A DNA stretch of 64,000 bases from Polystyrenella longa (GTDB lineage Bacteria; Planctomycetota; Planctomycetia; Planctomycetales; Planctomycetaceae), in the NCBI RefSeq assembly GCF_007750395.1, contig NZ_CP036281.1, positions 2,937,001-3,001,000 of the forward strand, read 5' to 3'. Of this stretch, positions 29,176 to 63,276 are shown in pieces (within the stretch, counting starts at the first letter, position 1; each line of letters starts with the position of its first letter). The notes beneath the pieces are model-generated. The model was not told the origin of the DNA. It did not search any database and was given only the letters and a program-made list of their open reading frames with translations. Both the position numbers and the translations under genes were made by a program.

Positions 29176-29219
29176 ACAAAAAAAGAACACACCTCCGGGC
29201 GAATGCCGAAAGTGTGTTC
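29176..29219 (-). terminator. Rho-independent terminator of the BON-like gene
   Basis: Arms GAACACAC (29185-29192) and GTGTGTTC (29212-29219), with a smaller CGGC/GCCG-type pairing inside. Read on the minus strand the hairpin is followed by seven T. It lies 55 bp past the stop of the gene at 29274-29507. Confidence 0.8.
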
Positions 29220-29273
29220 CCATGTTTCATTTAATCGTTTGAGCAAGGCTGGACTACAAGCACTATGCCGCGA

Positions 29274-29507
29274 TCAGATGACTTCAATCTTGTTGATGAG
29301 ACTCCTGTTGTCGATGACGTTCATCACGACGTGCGACGCAAGTTGCTTGTTGTAGTACGCGGTTGTATACCCGTATAACAAGACTTCCTGGTCATCCACT
29401 TCTACAAAGAGTTCCCGGATGGGGGCTCCTGTTCGGCTTTTGACAAGATGGTTGATTCGTTGAGCCAGAAGCTCATGTGAATCGACGGAAAGAGTTTGGA
29501 CAGTCAT
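29274..29507 (-). CDS. Small BON-like domain protein
   Basis: 77 residues from the ATG at 29507, supported by TGGAGG eight bases upstream on the minus strand. The sequence has alternating strands and helices as in a single BON unit: HELLAQRINHLVKSR, IRELFVEVDDQEVLLYGYT, YYNKQLASHVVMNV, SLINKIEV. No signal peptide is present, so it is probably cytosolic. BON domains usually bind phospholipid or sit in secretins; relatives of this short form are common in planctomycetes without known function. It has its own terminator and a long structured upstream region. Confidence 0.72.
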   Translation of the reverse strand: MTVQTLSVDSHELLAQRINHLVKSRTGAPIRELFVEVDDQEVLLYGYTTAYYNKQLASHVVMNVIDNRSLINKIEVI

Positions 29508-29635
29508 GAATATGCCTCCATGATAAGTGCACCAGATCCTCAATGGTGATGCGAGCTCTTTCAGCAACCACTGCCGAAACTCTCACAACACGTTCCAATA
29601 ATCTGGTTGTCCACGCTTGGCCAGCCTTTTCTAAT

Positions 29636-29719
29636 GTCTCGGTTCTATCCACTGCTCTCTTTCAAAAGCAGTGAGGGGATCCGAGACGCTGTCAAACGAG
29701 ACGATCAAAATCGCACAGC
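29636..29719. ncRNA. Candidate structured RNA: two adjacent stem-loops
   Basis: The first stem-loop has outer arms GTCTCGG (29636-29642) and CCGAGAC (29681-29687), an internal loop, then inner arms CACTGCT (29650-29656) and AGCAGTG (29667-29673), all perfect. A second follows at once: GCTGT (29688-29692) with ACAGC (29715-29719), enclosing CGAT/ATCG around a CAAA loop. The internal loop gains U-A, C-G and G-U pairs only on the plus strand. It lies 130 bp upstream of the BON-like gene, in a gene-free stretch. Confidence 0.4.
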
Positions 29720-29787
29720 ATGAACCGATCATCGATCAACTCCATTTATAAAGTTCGTTCAGGATGCCGGTTGAGTGCTCAAAGCGT

Positions 29788-29875
29788 ATTCTTGATCCGG
29801 TTTAGAATCTGGCGGGAGCGGGGCTTCTATCTCCCGTTTCATTCAGCCTTCAGATTTCAGACAAGAATCAAGAAT
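29788..29875. ncRNA. Candidate structured RNA: three nested stems
   Basis: Three nested perfect inverted repeats share one axis: ATTCTTGAT (29788-29796) with ATCAAGAAT (29867-29875), AATCTG (29806-29811) with CAGATT (29851-29856), and CGGGAG (29813-29818) with CTCCCG (29831-29836). The innermost hairpin is followed by TTTCATT, so it could also end a rightward transcript. The rest of the 29508-30238 gap, outside this and the previous element, shows nothing recognisable. Confidence 0.4.
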
Positions 29876-30238
29876 GATAAGTAAAAGTGTTTGAAACAGT
29901 TCATCCGGTCCGGTTCGATACTGTTGCGCAAATTCCATTGCAAACGACATGCCTTAAAAGCCCATGTCACAAAATCGGTGGCGAATATTAAGCGGATAAG
30001 AATAGAGATAATGAAATACAATCGCTCTTAATTCTGACTTTACCTGCCGGATATTATTTCAACAACCACGATCTGGACATAATTGTCATTTTTTCAATAA
30101 GTAGAATACCACTCCCCGAGGTTGAGAATGCTCCCGTGTGATTACTTAGATCGAGAACTGATCGGGCTGGATCGAAATGCCTGAATTCACTAGAGTCAAC
30201 ATTCTCTGACAGACCCCTTACAGAGCCTATATTACCGA

Positions 30239-31309
30239 ATGGAAATGATGATGGATCAGACTTCACGACAGTTTTTAAAAGACCTCATTCTCGCCCCCAG
30301 CCCTTCCGGGTATGAAGAACCTGTTCAGAAAGTAGTCCGAGAGTTCGCTGGTTCCTTCACCGATTCTATTTCCACCAGTTTGCACGGCAACGTCATCGCT
30401 TCCGTAAACGCCGATTCTCAGCCATCCATCTTGCTTGCCGGCCACTGTGACCAGATCGGTCTGCAGGTCAAGCACATCGACTCCGATGGTTACCTGATGG
30501 TGAACACCATCGGAGGTTGGGACATGCAAATGTTGATCGGCCAACGACTTCAAGTTTGGACAAGTAATGGTCCTGTACTGGGGGTTCTGGCCCGAAAAGC
30601 GATTCACCTGCTGACACCGGACGAACGAACCAAGGTCGCAGAACTCAAAGATATGTGGATCGATATCGGTGCCAAAGATGAAAAAGCGGCCCGTAAATTA
30701 GTCCAGATCGGTGATCCTGTGACGTTACAGTTAGTCTTCCACGAACTCCAGGACGACCTGATTACTGCCCCGGGCATTGATGACAAGACGGGTCTCTGGA
30801 TTGTCATGGAAGCCCTCCGACGCGTAGCCGCCGGAAAATCAACTGTGGGTGTTCACGCAGCCTCCACGGTCCAGGAAGAAATTGGTCTCCGAGGAGTCAG
30901 GACTGCTGCCTATTCGGTCAACCCGACCCTTGGGCTTGCAGTCGATGTCACTCACGCGACTGACTGTCCGACCGTCGATCCGAAAGAACATGGCGATGTG
31001 AAAATCGGCAAAGGCCCCGTACTATTCCGTGGTCCGAATATTAATCCAGTCGTCTTTTCCCGGCTCAAGCAGATCGCGGAAGACAACAAAATACCAGTGC
31101 AGATCGTCGCTATTGGGAGACCTGCCGGTAACGACGGAAACGCCATGCAGTTGAATAAAGCAGGCTGTGCTGTGGGCATTATCGGTGTCCCCAATCGCTA
31201 CATGCACAGCCCCGTCGAAATCGCCTCCTGGGGCGATTTGGATCATTCGGCCGAATTGATCTCCCTGTTCTGTCAAGAAGTGAAAGCAGACGACGATTTT
31301 ACTCCTTAA
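30239..31309 (+). CDS. M42 family metallopeptidase (glutamyl aminopeptidase/endoglucanase type)
   Basis: 356 residues, normal for the family. Dinuclear metal ligands are visible in order: LLAGHCDQIGLQ (His and Asp), APGIDDKTGLW (bridging Asp), STVQEEIGLRGVRTA (Glu pair), LAVDVTHATD (Asp) and NRYMHSPVE (His). The EEIGLRG block contains the general base glutamate. M42 enzymes are large cytosolic tetrahedral aminopeptidases that trim peptides. The N-terminus MEMMMDQTSRQFLKDLI could start at any of four methionines. A strong terminator follows at 31392. Confidence 0.95.
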   Translation: MEMMMDQTSRQFLKDLILAPSPSGYEEPVQKVVREFAGSFTDSISTSLHGNVIASVNADSQPSILLAGHCDQIGLQVKHIDSDGYLMVNTIGGWDMQMLIGQRLQVWTSNGPVLGVLARKAIHLLTPDERTKVAELKDMWIDIGAKDEKAARKLVQIGDPVTLQLVFHELQDDLITAPGIDDKTGLWIVMEALRRVAAGKSTVGVHAASTVQEEIGLRGVRTAAYSVNPTLGLAVDVTHATDCPTVDPKEHGDVKIGKGPVLFRGPNINPVVFSRLKQIAEDNKIPVQIVAIGRPAGNDGNAMQLNKAGCAVGIIGVPNRYMHSPVEIASWGDLDHSAELISLFCQEVKADDDFTP

Positions 31310-35214: not shown

Positions 35215-35250
35215 CCGGGATGGATGGAAAGACGCCTTTTCTGGTGTATA

Positions 35251-35309
35251 AAAAAGCCGAAGCTGATCAGCTTGGCCCTGATTATTCAGAGGCGAGCTGA
35301 TCAGCTTCG
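35251..35309 (-). terminator. Terminator with palindromic arms, minus strand
   Basis: CGAAGCTGATCAGCT (35258-35272) and AGCTGATCAGCTTCG (35295-35309) are perfect 15-bp arms with a 22-base loop. Each arm itself contains the palindrome AGCTGATCAGCT. On the minus strand the stem is followed by GGCTTTTTTATA, so it would end transcripts from the small lipoprotein gene about 145 bp upstream. The rest of 35310-35452 shows nothing. Confidence 0.75.
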
Positions 35310-35452
35310 ACTAGAGGAAAAAATGCTTTGTAACACTCGGGCTGGTTAGCCTTCCGGAATCGACCACTAACGAGACGATTGACCTGGGTGATTCACAGTT
35401 TCCTCCTCCTGTGAGTTACCCGAAAAGGTATGCCGAGTAAGTTGTATTAGAT

Positions 35453-43617: not shown

Positions 43618-44703
43618 ATGTCGTGTTCAGATTGCCAGAAGAAAAAAGACTCGTTCACTCGCCACAATCTGCTGGCCGGAATATTTGCCGTTTCCGGTAT
43701 CGCCGTTCTGTATGTGAACTTTGATCCAGTTCCGCGCGGGCATGACCCAGCAGCGGCTCAATTGGAAGAGGTTGACCTGTCCGAATTCACTTCATTCACG
43801 AATGTGAGTTCTGGATTTATGAAGAAGGTTCAGGCGGAAGAGTTCGATGAGCCTCAGAATTCGTTAGGCAAGCAGCCTATTCAAACGGCCATGATTGCAG
43901 AGCCAGTGGCTTCCAGCTCTAACGACGTACTTCACTCCTCCGCTGAAGCTGGTTCCGCGCTCTCCCAGTTGAAAACTTGTCAGGGAGAAGATGCCGTCAA
44001 ACTGATTCAGTCGATCCTGGAAGAAGGGCTTGAAAATCTGAAACAGATTCCAGACTACACGACGACCTTTATCAAACAGGAACGAATTGCAGGATCCATG
44101 ACGGAACCGAATTTGATCAATCTCAAAATTCGTCATGAACCGTTCAGTGTCTATATGAAATGGCTAAATGGTGATAAAGGTCGGGAACTGCTGTATGTAG
44201 ATGGAGAAAACAATGGAGACATGGTGGTGCGGGTCGGAGGTGTTCGCGGGCGGTTCCTGCCAGCCCTTAACCTGAATCCACTCGGCGACCTCGCTCTGCA
44301 GGAGTCTCGTCACCCCATTACTCAAATCGGTCTCGCGAACCTGATTCGTAAAGCGCTTGAGTTTCGGGAACGTGATCTCAACAACCTCGATAATCTGAAC
44401 TGTTGGATTAACGATGGGGTCACTTTCGACAAACGGGACTGTTTCGAGTTTGTCGTCGAATATCAGGAAAAGCGTCCAATTCACGAGTATCGCAAGTCGG
44501 TGATCACCATTGAGAAAAGTCTGGGGATTCCTGTCGGGGTGAAGAACTTCGCTTGGGAAGAACAAGTCGATTCAGTAGATGCGAACAACCTCGACAAATC
44601 GACCTTAATTGAAAACTACGCTTACACCAACATTAATTACACTCGCCGTCTCGCTGCTGCGGAGTTCGATAAAAGCAATCAGAACTACCGCTTCATCAAG
44701 TAA
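43618..44703 (+). CDS. DUF1571 family exported protein
   Basis: 361 residues. The start has CGGGAG upstream. A short cytoplasmic start with CSDCQKKK is followed by one hydrophobic helix (about 19-36) and an acidic linker. The DUF1571 domain covers roughly residues 145-355: LENLKQIPDYTTTFIKQERI, LKIRHEPFSVYMKWLNGDKG, LLYVDGENNGDMVVRVGG and NYAYTNINYTRRLAAAEFD. The family is frequent in planctomycetes and unknown in function, and its fold resembles lipoprotein carriers (LolA/LolB). A strong terminator follows. Confidence 0.85.
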   Translation: MSCSDCQKKKDSFTRHNLLAGIFAVSGIAVLYVNFDPVPRGHDPAAAQLEEVDLSEFTSFTNVSSGFMKKVQAEEFDEPQNSLGKQPIQTAMIAEPVASSSNDVLHSSAEAGSALSQLKTCQGEDAVKLIQSILEEGLENLKQIPDYTTTFIKQERIAGSMTEPNLINLKIRHEPFSVYMKWLNGDKGRELLYVDGENNGDMVVRVGGVRGRFLPALNLNPLGDLALQESRHPITQIGLANLIRKALEFRERDLNNLDNLNCWINDGVTFDKRDCFEFVVEYQEKRPIHEYRKSVITIEKSLGIPVGVKNFAWEEQVDSVDANNLDKSTLIENYAYTNINYTRRLAAAEFDKSNQNYRFIK

Positions 44704-44736
44704 TCGTGGTTGAGAAACAGAATATCCGATATAAAA

Positions 44737-44773
44737 CAGGTCCGCTGACGACATCGTCAGCGGACCTGTTTTT
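44737..44773. terminator. Bidirectional terminator between DUF1571 and hemQ genes
   Basis: CAGGTCCGCTGACGA (44737-44751) and TCGTCAGCGGACCTG (44754-44768) are perfect 15-base arms. T5 follows on the plus strand and TTTTAT on the minus strand, so it can end both convergent genes. Confidence 0.92.
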
Positions 44774-44811
44774 GTATTGGTGGTTGGGTGAAATAATCGA
44801 CAGACTTCTAA

Positions 44812-45642
44812 TCAAATGCGAAGATGGGACAAGACATCTGCCGGTGACATGATGTACCCGATGTAGAATGGCCCGAACTCCGCATATTTCGCTGAGGCAG
44901 TATCAAAACGCATCGTGTAGACGATGTCTTTAATGTATTCGGGTGCGCGGCCCCAGAGCGTCACTCCCCATTCCCAGTCATCGTACCCGGTCGAAGCGGT
45001 GATCAACTGCGAGACCTTACCGGCGAATTTGATTCCGGACGTCGCATGTTCCGACATCATATCGGATCGGCTGCTGAACGGTTCCATAAACCAGTTTGCC
45101 TGAGGATGCCGGGCTTTATTCATAGGGTAGAAGCAAATGATCGGCCAGGCAGGGAAGTCGGGGTAAAGTCGTTGCTGGTTCATCATCGGTAACCGTTTTT
45201 CATAAGCGCCTACTTTTGCTCGAAAACTGGGATCTTCCGGCGAGGCACCATCGCGTTTCAATCGCTCGGCGTATTGTTCGAGTGTCGGCACATATTCTGA
45301 GACTTCGCTGATGGAGACGAAGGAATAAGTCGCCTCGAAAGCGGCTCCCAGTGCCGAGGATCGAATTGCCTGGGCGACAGCATCGATTTTGAGCGGGTCC
45401 GGATCCATCGCCATCAACCCCCAGTCTGCCCGATGCCCCGTCACGGCGAAGCACTGCAGTCGCGCGGGAGCGTCGTCTCGTTCCGAGTTGAGAATCTCGG
45501 CAACTTCTTGACGCCCCGTTTCCAATTCGGAACTGGTCAACGCTTTAAGGGCAGACTGATTGATGCGGTAGTACAAGTGGAGGCAGTGCCAACCATCACT
45601 CATCAAACGGGTGGGGTCTGGCAGCTCCTGTGCGGAAGGCAT
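44812..45642 (-). CDS. hemQ: Coproheme decarboxylase HemQ (chlorite dismutase family)
   Basis: 276 residues from ATG 45642; an ATG at 45741 would add 33. The family is identified by GWHCLHLYYRI at the N-terminus, FYPMNKARHPQANWF with the catalytic tyrosine and lysine of the YPMxK motif, the proximal histidine in MMSEHATSGIKFAGKVSQLI, and STGYDDWEWGVTLWGR. The pattern is HemQ-like rather than chlorite-dismutating, since the arginine of true Cld is absent. It makes heme b from coproheme with hydrogen peroxide, ending the coproporphyrin-dependent pathway. It lies head to head with the stress-protein gene. Confidence 0.9.
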   Translation of the reverse strand: MPSAQELPDPTRLMSDGWHCLHLYYRINQSALKALTSSELETGRQEVAEILNSERDDAPARLQCFAVTGHRADWGLMAMDPDPLKIDAVAQAIRSSALGAAFEATYSFVSISEVSEYVPTLEQYAERLKRDGASPEDPSFRAKVGAYEKRLPMMNQQRLYPDFPAWPIICFYPMNKARHPQANWFMEPFSSRSDMMSEHATSGIKFAGKVSQLITASTGYDDWEWGVTLWGRAPEYIKDIVYTMRFDTASAKYAEFGPFYIGYIMSPADVLSHLRI

Positions 45643-60887: not shown

Positions 60888-63229
60888 CATTACCAAGTCG
60901 AGAATATCTCCGACCACAGCAGAAATGGATCTGTGGGCGTCAATGCGAAGGTTCTTGTGTGCAAGGCCCAACTAAATCCGGCCGTTGCGAAACGACTTCC
61001 GCATGCCAGCCTGTCAAACGAGAGAACCGTTGGTCCTGCAATCGATCTACTTTACAAGGTGGTCCGTGTGAAAAAGGCCCTTCTCCGGACGGAGACTGCT
61101 GCCCGGTGCATCCTCCTTGTGTTCCCCGGCGAAGCCTACGTTCGCAACGGGGGATTGCGGCGGGACTCAGTTTCGTATTTACGATTGGTGTTCTTCTGGT
61201 GGTATTCGGTTTGACTAACTGGCGAACAACGATTGCTCCGGGGGCCTTAGCCAGTCCCCATGCGCAACTGTTTCAATCTCAATCTGAATCCGAAAAATGC
61301 ACTGCCTGCCATCAGGAATTCGGTTTCCAATCGGGAGAATGGTTGACGGCATTCTGGGTGACAGATCGCGGGGCGGACCATCCCCTGTCGAAAAGCTGTA
61401 TGGCCTGTCACGGGAACAATTTTTCTGCCCAATGGGCGAGTGAGCCTCATTCGTTACCGGGGAAAGTAACCAGGGAACTAACGGATCAGATCCATGCCCG
61501 ACTTCAACATCAGTCTGCAGATAAAAACATCGTCCAGTTGGCCAGCTTTCTCCCTGCGACCACAGTAAAACCGGAATGCGCGTATTGCCATCAAGAGCAT
61601 CAGGGAGCCGATCATGATTTGACGGCGATGACTGATAAACAGTGTTTGTCCTGCCATGCACAACAGTTTGAAAGTTTTTCTTCTGGCCATCCCGAGTTTG
61701 ATCAGTGGCCATTGCAACGAACACCTTCTTTGATATTCAACCACGTCACTCATGCGGGTAAACATTTTACGGACCGCAAACAAGCATTCGATTGCAGTAG
61801 TTGCCACTATGATGCTAACACGCATGAGATCGTTTCCGTCGTAAGTTTTGAGCAATCCTGTGCTGATTGCCATCAGGACCAATTGAAACAGGCCATCGCC
61901 GAAGGGATTCCTTTGTTGGCATTGCCCATGATTGATCGAGTGGCTCTGGGACAACGATTGGATAGCACCTTCAGATGGCCAACCGAAGCAGTGGGTGACT
62001 TTGATGGTCAGTTGCCGCTGTTAATGGAGTTCCTACTGAATCAGCCAGGGGCGTCTTCGCATCCAGAGCCGTTTACAGCGGGAATCGACTTCAGCCTTGT
62101 TGATCCTGATCATTCTCAGGACCTCGATTTAGTTGCCGAATTGATACCGCAGATACGACAACTCTGGTTTGATTTGGCATCAAAAGGTCAAAACGCCTAT
62201 TTAAAACGTATCGAGCATCTGTTGAATCGGTCCCTTAGTGAAAAAGAACAGCGTGAACTCAGTTCACTGCTACCGCTAGATCTTTTTAGAATCAGTTACG
62301 ATCGCTGGTTTGAGGTGGCACCAGAAGGTGAGTCGGCCTACATCGAATCGGCGGAAGGAATTCGATTAGTCGCAGCAGCGGAGCAAAGGGAACCTCGACT
62401 CTATATCGCAGAGGAGATGATCATCCTTCCCGGAGATAAACTACTGCTCGACTCGCTTCCTCCAGGGGAATGGACAGGCGCTGCGACCACGAATGATGGT
62501 GCGGCGGCACCCTCCGTTAAAAAAGAAGAAAATAAACCTCCGACAGTAACTGAGAGTGAACAAGAAAATCCCGTTCCATCCGCCACTTTAGAAGCCACGG
62601 ATCCAAAGTCTGTGCCGCCTGTAAAAACCGAGGAACCAACACCGTCGCTCTTAATTCCCATCGACCATACAAATGGAGGTGAGACAACCTCGTTGGATTG
62701 GAAAGAGATTCCACAGCGGGGATGGTACCGCGATGATTTAAAACTGACGATTGGGTATCGACCTGTTGGTCATGCTGACCCATTTATGACGAGTTGGCTG
62801 GAGCTCGCTTTCATTACGAGCAGTGATGATTCTTCACGCGCGATGACATCGTTGCGAAATCAGATGAAAGAGTCGGCACCTTTTCGCAATTGTCTCAGCT
62901 GTCATGATCTCGAAAGAGGTCGTTCAGGCGACGAACAATTTAATTGGCTCTCGAATTCAAAGCAATTCAGGCTCAAAACCTTCACTAAATTTTCGCACCG
63001 CCCTCACCTGACGATCCCTGAAATGCGGGATTGCCGACATTGTCATGCATTGGAAACAGAACAACCCGCCGCCATCGGTAGCGAATTCTCTAAACTCTCG
63101 ATTCAGAGTTGCACCGTGTGTCATAACCCGCAAGGAGCCAAAGAGGGTTGTCGCGAGTGCCACAACTACCACGTTGACCATCGCAGTTTAATCCTCTTTG
63201 ATGGGACAAAAAAAAGTCGTGCGGAATAA
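60884..63229 (+). CDS. Membrane-bound decaheme cytochrome c with N-terminal Cys-rich repeats
   Basis: 781 residues from ATG 60884. Residues 15-79 hold two similar cysteine-rich units, W-I-C-G-R to C41 and W-S-C-N-R to C79, each with C-x-x-G-P-x3-G-x-C, ten cysteines in all and no CXXCH. RRSLRSQRG precedes one membrane helix (about 91-112), so this part should be cytoplasmic. Ten CXXCH motifs follow outside: six from 139 to about 330 (CTACH, CMACH, CAYCH, CLSCH, CSSCH, CADCH) and four from 670 to about 760 (CLSCH, CRHCH, CTVCH, CRECH). A low-complexity P/E/T linker lies between the two heme groups. It could pass electrons across the membrane to periplasmic hemes. Confidence 0.9.
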   Translation: MTLPSREYLRPQQKWICGRQCEGSCVQGPTKSGRCETTSACQPVKRENRWSCNRSTLQGGPCEKGPSPDGDCCPVHPPCVPRRSLRSQRGIAAGLSFVFTIGVLLVVFGLTNWRTTIAPGALASPHAQLFQSQSESEKCTACHQEFGFQSGEWLTAFWVTDRGADHPLSKSCMACHGNNFSAQWASEPHSLPGKVTRELTDQIHARLQHQSADKNIVQLASFLPATTVKPECAYCHQEHQGADHDLTAMTDKQCLSCHAQQFESFSSGHPEFDQWPLQRTPSLIFNHVTHAGKHFTDRKQAFDCSSCHYDANTHEIVSVVSFEQSCADCHQDQLKQAIAEGIPLLALPMIDRVALGQRLDSTFRWPTEAVGDFDGQLPLLMEFLLNQPGASSHPEPFTAGIDFSLVDPDHSQDLDLVAELIPQIRQLWFDLASKGQNAYLKRIEHLLNRSLSEKEQRELSSLLPLDLFRISYDRWFEVAPEGESAYIESAEGIRLVAAAEQREPRLYIAEEMIILPGDKLLLDSLPPGEWTGAATTNDGAAAPSVKKEENKPPTVTESEQENPVPSATLEATDPKSVPPVKTEEPTPSLLIPIDHTNGGETTSLDWKEIPQRGWYRDDLKLTIGYRPVGHADPFMTSWLELAFITSSDDSSRAMTSLRNQMKESAPFRNCLSCHDLERGRSGDEQFNWLSNSKQFRLKTFTKFSHRPHLTIPEMRDCRHCHALETEQPAAIGSEFSKLSIQSCTVCHNPQGAKEGCRECHNYHVDHRSLILFDGTKKSRAE

Positions 63230-63248
63230 GAACTATTCCACACGACTT
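63214..63248. terminator. Bidirectional terminator, overlapping the cytochrome stop codon
   Basis: AAGTCGTG (63214-63221) pairs with CACGACTT (63241-63248) and GGAATA with TATTCC inside, with one mismatch. The plus-strand stop TAA is inside the loop side of the stem. Leftward, the hairpin is followed by eight T, so it mainly ends the SGNH hydrolase gene. Confidence 0.85.
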
Positions 63249-63276
63249 GTATTTATACAATCTTACACAAGTATCC

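Follow-up and report, generated by a model that had tools for sequence, protein, structure and literature searches.

A candidate sigma-54-driven structured leader RNA upstream of a BON-domain gene in Polystyrenella longa

Qrr of Vibrio and GlmY/GlmZ are sigma-54-dependent regulatory RNAs. The element considered here resembles them as a putative structured RNA with its predicted start at a -24/-12 promoter, but it differs from them in having no terminator before the next gene and in that its conserved sequence continues to the Shine-Dalgarno of a BON-domain gene. It is also similar to bacterial structured 5' leaders and cis-regulatory RNAs as presented in PMC2864571, with which it shares conserved basal helices, variable tips, a place upstream of one gene and compensatory changes; unlike those RNAs, it has no Rfam match and is represented by three sequences of one genus, and a ligand or switch would be only putative. 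One planctomycete motif, Rhodopirellula-1, is tabulated without an Rfam accession in the same source. In the literature found, little is described of planctomycete regulatory RNAs and sigma-54 targets. If the leader proposed below is real, it would represent a defined, testable RNA in planctomycetes, a group with few known ones, and an example of how a hairpin can be preserved as a structure even though close relatives differ in its entire sequence.

The element is located in a 64-kb window (the whole stretch of DNA that was analysed, to which all positions refer), inside a 731-bp gap between divergent genes for a BON-domain protein (minus strand) and an M42 peptidase (plus strand). The Pfam BON match of the 77-aa protein had an E-value of 4.4e-4 and, at 20.9 bits, did not reach the curated cut-off (27); of 150 family genomes, 86 contained BON homologs at E <= 1e-5. 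Close relatives carry a Planctomycetaceae annotation. The comparison within the genus covered three genomes (this genome, G001 and G002), and the element was matched in all of them. It is likely that the gap holds a structured leader or non-coding RNA candidate. More specifically, we favor with moderate confidence a structured 5' leader of approximately 420 nt that would precede the BON gene and be driven by sigma-54, in which the hairpin H1 would be one arm. The features involved are listed in Table 1.

Table 1. Positions of the proposed helices, the promoter element and the flanking genes in the window
Feature	Position	Strand	Remarks
M42 aminopeptidase gene, divergent neighbour	30239..31309	+	Pfam Peptidase_M42, 2.4e-79
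Sigma-54-type -24/-12 element	29939..29954	-	AGGCATGTCGTTTGCA; GG at 29953-29952, GC at 29941-29940
P1 5' strand	29910..29928	-	A2 columns 33-51; begins at predicted transcription start
H1	29788..29875	-	9-bp outer and two 6-bp inner arms; G002 and G001 have counterparts whose 9-bp arms are perfect
P1 3' strand	29712..29728	-	A2 columns 238-254; 47 of 51 cells paired
P2 5' strand	29693..29702	-	GTCTCGTTTG; invariant in all three genomes
H2 hairpin, enclosed by P2	29636..29687	-	This genome and G002 differ by compensatory double changes
P2 3' strand	29609..29619	-	CAAGCGYGGAC
H3 hairpin	29559..29579	-	TTTCGGCA-GTGGT-TGCTGAAA; upstream of Shine-Dalgarno; changes give G-U on minus strand
Shine-Dalgarno GGAGG of BON gene	29515..29519	-	Conserved in all three genus genomes
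BON-domain gene	29274..29507	-	77 aa; start codon at 29507; presumed regulated gene

The initial annotation of this locus had reported three nested perfect inverted repeats at H1, and these are present with arms of 9, 6 and 6 bp. The outer arms, ATTCTTGAT (29788-29796) and ATCAAGAAT (29867-29875), are paired at 9 of 9 positions; the middle arms are AATCTG (29806-29811) and CAGATT (29851-29856), and the inner arms CGGGAG (29813-29818) and CTCCCG (29831-29836), after which the TTTC that had also been described can be read at 29837-29840. A nested 9+6+6 set with a span of at most 88 occurred only once in the window, namely at H1. In 60 dinucleotide shuffles of the window the mean number of nested triples was 0.05, and the observed number was matched in one of them. 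Perfect 9-bp inverted repeats of the same maximal span numbered 36 in the window versus a shuffle mean of 21.3. When the 88 nt were folded, the plus strand reached -31.3 kcal/mol (z -3.52, none of 200 shuffles as low) and the minus strand -24.3 kcal/mol (z -1.88, 9 of 200 shuffles as low), which placed H1 in the best 1.1% and the best 12%, respectively, among 2906 segments of 88 nt on both strands. Inclusion of 32 extra flanking bases lowered the plus-strand z to -2.55, and the 207-base stretch between the neighbouring conserved blocks, folded in this species alone, was not significant (z -1.01 on plus, -0.95 on minus). H1 is less special when judged by fold energy alone.

A search for further copies revealed that the element is single copy in the 6.1-Mb single-contig genome, where the only other match was 23 bases long (E 0.89), and a mobile or dispersed repeat (MITE) was rejected on this count. 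The original interpretation of the nested repeats as an RNA fold is probably right in that it sets RNA above a mobile repeat; besides the copy number, it is supported by a 9-bp-armed hairpin that all three genomes of the genus have in the corresponding spacer and by compensatory changes in the wider fold. No Rfam family was matched in the window (best sub-threshold E 0.2), and a tRNA or tmRNA identity was likewise not found. An intrinsic terminator at the TTTC was also rejected: 29788-29875 was not among the sites returned by the terminator scan, and there is TTTC only, with no T run. By contrast, a strong hairpin followed by TTTTT was observed at about 44738-44775 of the window, between convergent genes.

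The three-way alignment revealed conserved blocks at about 29590, 29690-29735 and 29890-29950, with two variable stretches, H1 and H2, between them. The invariant fraction was 0.90 at 29590 and 0.77 at 29920 versus 0.00 at 29800-29829, and conservation ran on through H3 as far as the BON Shine-Dalgarno. In both variable stretches the hairpin was retained while the sequence changed. All three species reached 9 bases in the longest perfect inverted repeat of the H1 spacer (shuffle p 0.01, 0.017 and 0.02). G002 has the same H1 arms as this genome (ATTCTTGAC/GTCAAGAAT) except for a single compensatory T-A to C-G change, around a different interior, and these two genomes are therefore not independent; the arms of G001 (AACAGCTTT/AAAGCTGTT) are unrelated to those of the other two. 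The H2 arms are gap-free between this genome and G002 and contain two adjacent compensatory double changes (pairs 281-336 and 282-335, with U-A/C-G and C-G/U-A swapped), and the hairpin is present in G001 with other arms. The best reading of H1 appears to be that of a variable, fast-evolving hairpin arm of a leader RNA. The site, its single copy, the conserved blocks, their complementarity and the hairpin replacement are computed results.

On the minus strand, RNAalifold paired the conserved blocks with each other. The two P1 blocks are complementary across 180 bases, and flank and enclose H1; compared with shuffles, the P1 duplex had minus-strand p-values of 0.004, 0.003 and 0.001 for the three species and was weaker on the plus strand (0.019, 0.077 and 0.0055). 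The P2 duplex had p-values of 0.012, 0.063 and 0.089 and was, taken alone, significant in one of the three species. Over the five named helices, 92.3% of 156 cells were paired, compared with at most 44.1% when the helices were slid by 1-3 columns, although this control favors them since they had been drawn from the alignment that was later scored. Five pairs were changed on both sides, a number reached in 5 of 500 shuffles, and two of these five depend on a doubtful G001 alignment. When RNAalifold energies were compared with those of 150 local column shuffles, the minus strand gave -71.3 (z -5.3) and the plus strand -55.8 (z -3.2), with none of the 150 as low on either strand. Conserved secondary structure with compensatory change was found in the wider fold by these tests, on three sequences only. 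In full-length folds, the mean pair probability of P1 was 0.83 in this genome, 0.42 in G002 and 0.20 in G001, and the minimum-energy folds of G002 and G001 were without P1. The Shine-Dalgarno GGA and the start codon were predicted to be mostly paired in the full-leader folds of all three species. Sequestration of the start codon by the 5' end of the RNA was considered and rejected, pairing with the start region being no better than in shuffles (p 0.58, 0.31 and 0.30).

We also compared the two strands as possible RNAs. Standard pairs over the five helices amounted to 144 of 156 cells as minus RNA versus 130 as plus RNA, including 26 versus 21 of 27 cells in H3 and 30 versus 24 of 30 in P2; H2 was near neutral (17 versus 18 of 21). 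For H1 alone, the plus RNA had the higher predicted stability in all three species; at p 0.05, H1 passed in one of three on the minus strand and in all three on the plus strand. Weighing the whole evidence, we infer that the RNA is made from the minus strand, which is favored because of the alignment energy, P1, H3 and P2.

With respect to transcription, the element AGGCATGTCGTTTGCA has one mismatch to TGGCAYGNNNNTTGCW, and near-consensus GG-N10-GC -24/-12 elements were found in all three species (GGGCACGCCTTTTGCA in G002 and AGGCATGCCGTTTGCA in G001); the sigma-54 consensus given in PMC2725144 is mrNrYTGGCACG-4bp-TTGCWNNw. In a scan whose weights were our own choice, no site on either strand of the window scored higher for sigma-54 than this one, and the congener counterparts were the top of both their loci. 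The motif at one mismatch occurred 106 times in the genome versus 74 times for the reversed pattern, and the motif alone is therefore weak; from the background rate, the chance of a site in a given 60-bp block is about 7 in 10,000. As for RpoN in the host, the genome has one Sigma54_DBD gene (202.9 bits). The predicted +1 at about 29928, counted 12 bases on from the -12 C (29940), coincides with the first base of P1, so that the base of P1 and the predicted promoter start, reached by two separate lines of inference, converge on one place. No upstream activator site was recognised by eye in 29960-30240. In addition, a second, sigma-70 promoter in the leader, suggested by a conserved TTGACA (29691-29696), was rejected, as no TAnnnT was present at 16-19 bases in the three leaders.

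From these sequence comparisons we infer which strand is transcribed, that the promoter is used, that the RNA continues into the BON message and that it is regulatory. Transcription from the sigma-54-type promoter would begin near 29928 and run on the minus strand into the BON start codon at 29507, giving a leader of about 421 nt. Its first bases (29928-29910) would pair with 29728-29712 as P1 and enclose H1, 29702-29693 would pair with 29619-29609 as P2 and enclose H2, and H3 would be placed just before the Shine-Dalgarno. Sigma-54 together with an enhancer-binding activator would render transcription conditional, and the folded leader might set the stability or translation of the BON message, with helix bases conserved and tips turning over.

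Several other explanations should be weighed against the BON leader. First, a stand-alone sigma-54-driven small RNA, Qrr-like in kind, might be transcribed from the minus strand and be ended or cut before BON, which would then be read from elsewhere. The promoter and fold evidence would fit such an RNA equally, and the structure is concentrated in the first 320 nt. However, no terminator-like site was found on the minus strand in 29200-30300, a T run after H2 is absent in all three species, conservation extends through H3 to the Shine-Dalgarno, and no TTGAC-N16..19-TAnnnT promoter lies between this RNA and BON in the three leaders; we regard it as rather unlikely. Second, the conserved blocks might act as DNA, as a promoter or as activator or repressor operators, with hairpins that are incidental or serve as DNA palindromes and no structured RNA at all. 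The block at 29900-29960 fits a promoter, the 9-bp arms are kept in G002 and this genome at different spacing, as paired protein sites could be, and palindromes are plentiful in bacterial intergenic DNA, as the excess of nine-base repeats described above (36 versus 21.3 expected) illustrates. Against DNA sites stand the compensatory changes in the H2 arms and the top pair of H1, the complementarity of two conserved blocks 180 bases apart, the alignment-fold z of -5.3 and the replacement of the arms in G001, and we consider this explanation unlikely.

Third, an RNA might be made from the plus strand, either as an antisense to the BON leader or as the small RNA put forward as a possibility in the initial annotation, which would span 29636-29840 and end at the TTTC. 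The greater stability of H1 as plus RNA in all three species and the plus alignment-fold z of -3.2 are in its favor, as is a weak terminator-like CTGGTTGTCCACGCTTGGCCAG-CCTTTTCT at 29603-29624 (plus strand), of which shuffles give about one in the region. However, the minus strand is ahead on the whole alignment, on P1 and on the G-U changes in H3, a T run after H1 is absent, and the consensus scan showed neither a terminator-like site at the TTTC nor a promoter-like site to serve such an RNA, which speaks against the small RNA as originally drawn and leaves a plus-strand product improbable. What survives of that proposal is that H1 and the hairpin at 29636-29687 appear to share one RNA, although its strand and ends differ. 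Finally, conservation due to a remnant or hidden coding sequence, suggested by a 114-codon minus-strand frame in G002 and by the fact that all three variable columns of a 36-column block-A stretch (29600-29640, minus strand) are third positions of the frame LAKRG[HQ]PDYWNV, is highly improbable and appears largely refuted by the stops, since this frame has stops close by on either side in this genome and G001, the 114-codon frame is broken in both, and no frame is open through the leader in all three.

Returning to the proposed leader of the BON gene, its distribution was investigated in other genomes. A covariance model built from 29526-29716 (the P2-H3 half) matched all three genus genomes strongly (E 1e-51 or lower) and gave three chance-level matches in the 167 other family genomes (E 0.011, 0.034 and 0.37), of a size expected by chance over 170 genomes. 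By blastn of 59 genomes (own included), the leader was found in the genus only, and at low stringency, blastn returned no more than short scattered matches in 27 BON loci from other genera, taken from 86 genomes with a BON match. At these 27 loci no sigma-54 element reached the congener score on the sense strand (best sense 19.0), and one antisense element scored 20.0 (L041).

The BON leaders of a neighbouring genus of the family (L010, L011 and L013, the same sequences as L043, L038 and L032) have the same divergent BON/M42 pair and a hairpin just before the Shine-Dalgarno, but differ in a gap of under 300 bp versus 731, a sigma-70-like TTGACG-N17-TAnnnT, and the lack of both a -24/-12 element and the helices from P1 to H2. 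In view of these features of the neighbouring genus, replacement or expansion at the genus level would seem to explain the long leader. A bolder proposal, which we consider doubtful, is that it might represent a new RNA class confined to this genus, in which transcription starts from sigma-54, P1 locks the 5' end to a conserved internal sequence, and two hairpin arms undergo rapid replacement. Such a leader would serve as a sensor gating a small BON-domain protein, in place of the short sigma-70 leader that the neighbouring genus still has.

Some other hairpins were observed in the course of this analysis. The pre-Shine-Dalgarno hairpin of the neighbouring genus has arms that change and a loop of similar pyrimidine/CACACA type (TCTTTCACACACA or TTCTTCCACACACACC), and is possibly another small RNA element. 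In the window, 44705-44792 folds into a very strong hairpin whichever strand is read (z about -11 and -10) and includes a TTTTT run; it is located between a plus-strand gene ending at 44703 and the start of a minus-strand ORF at 44812, and looks like a shared terminator of convergent genes. A long hairpin with near-perfect 19-bp arms (CGAAGCTGATCAGCTTGGC/GCGAGCTGATCAGCTTCG) was found at 35245-35332, in a stretch without ORFs of at least 100 aa, and at 63205-63260 an A run borders one side of a terminator-like hairpin (AAGTCGTGCGGAATA/ATTCCACACGACTT).
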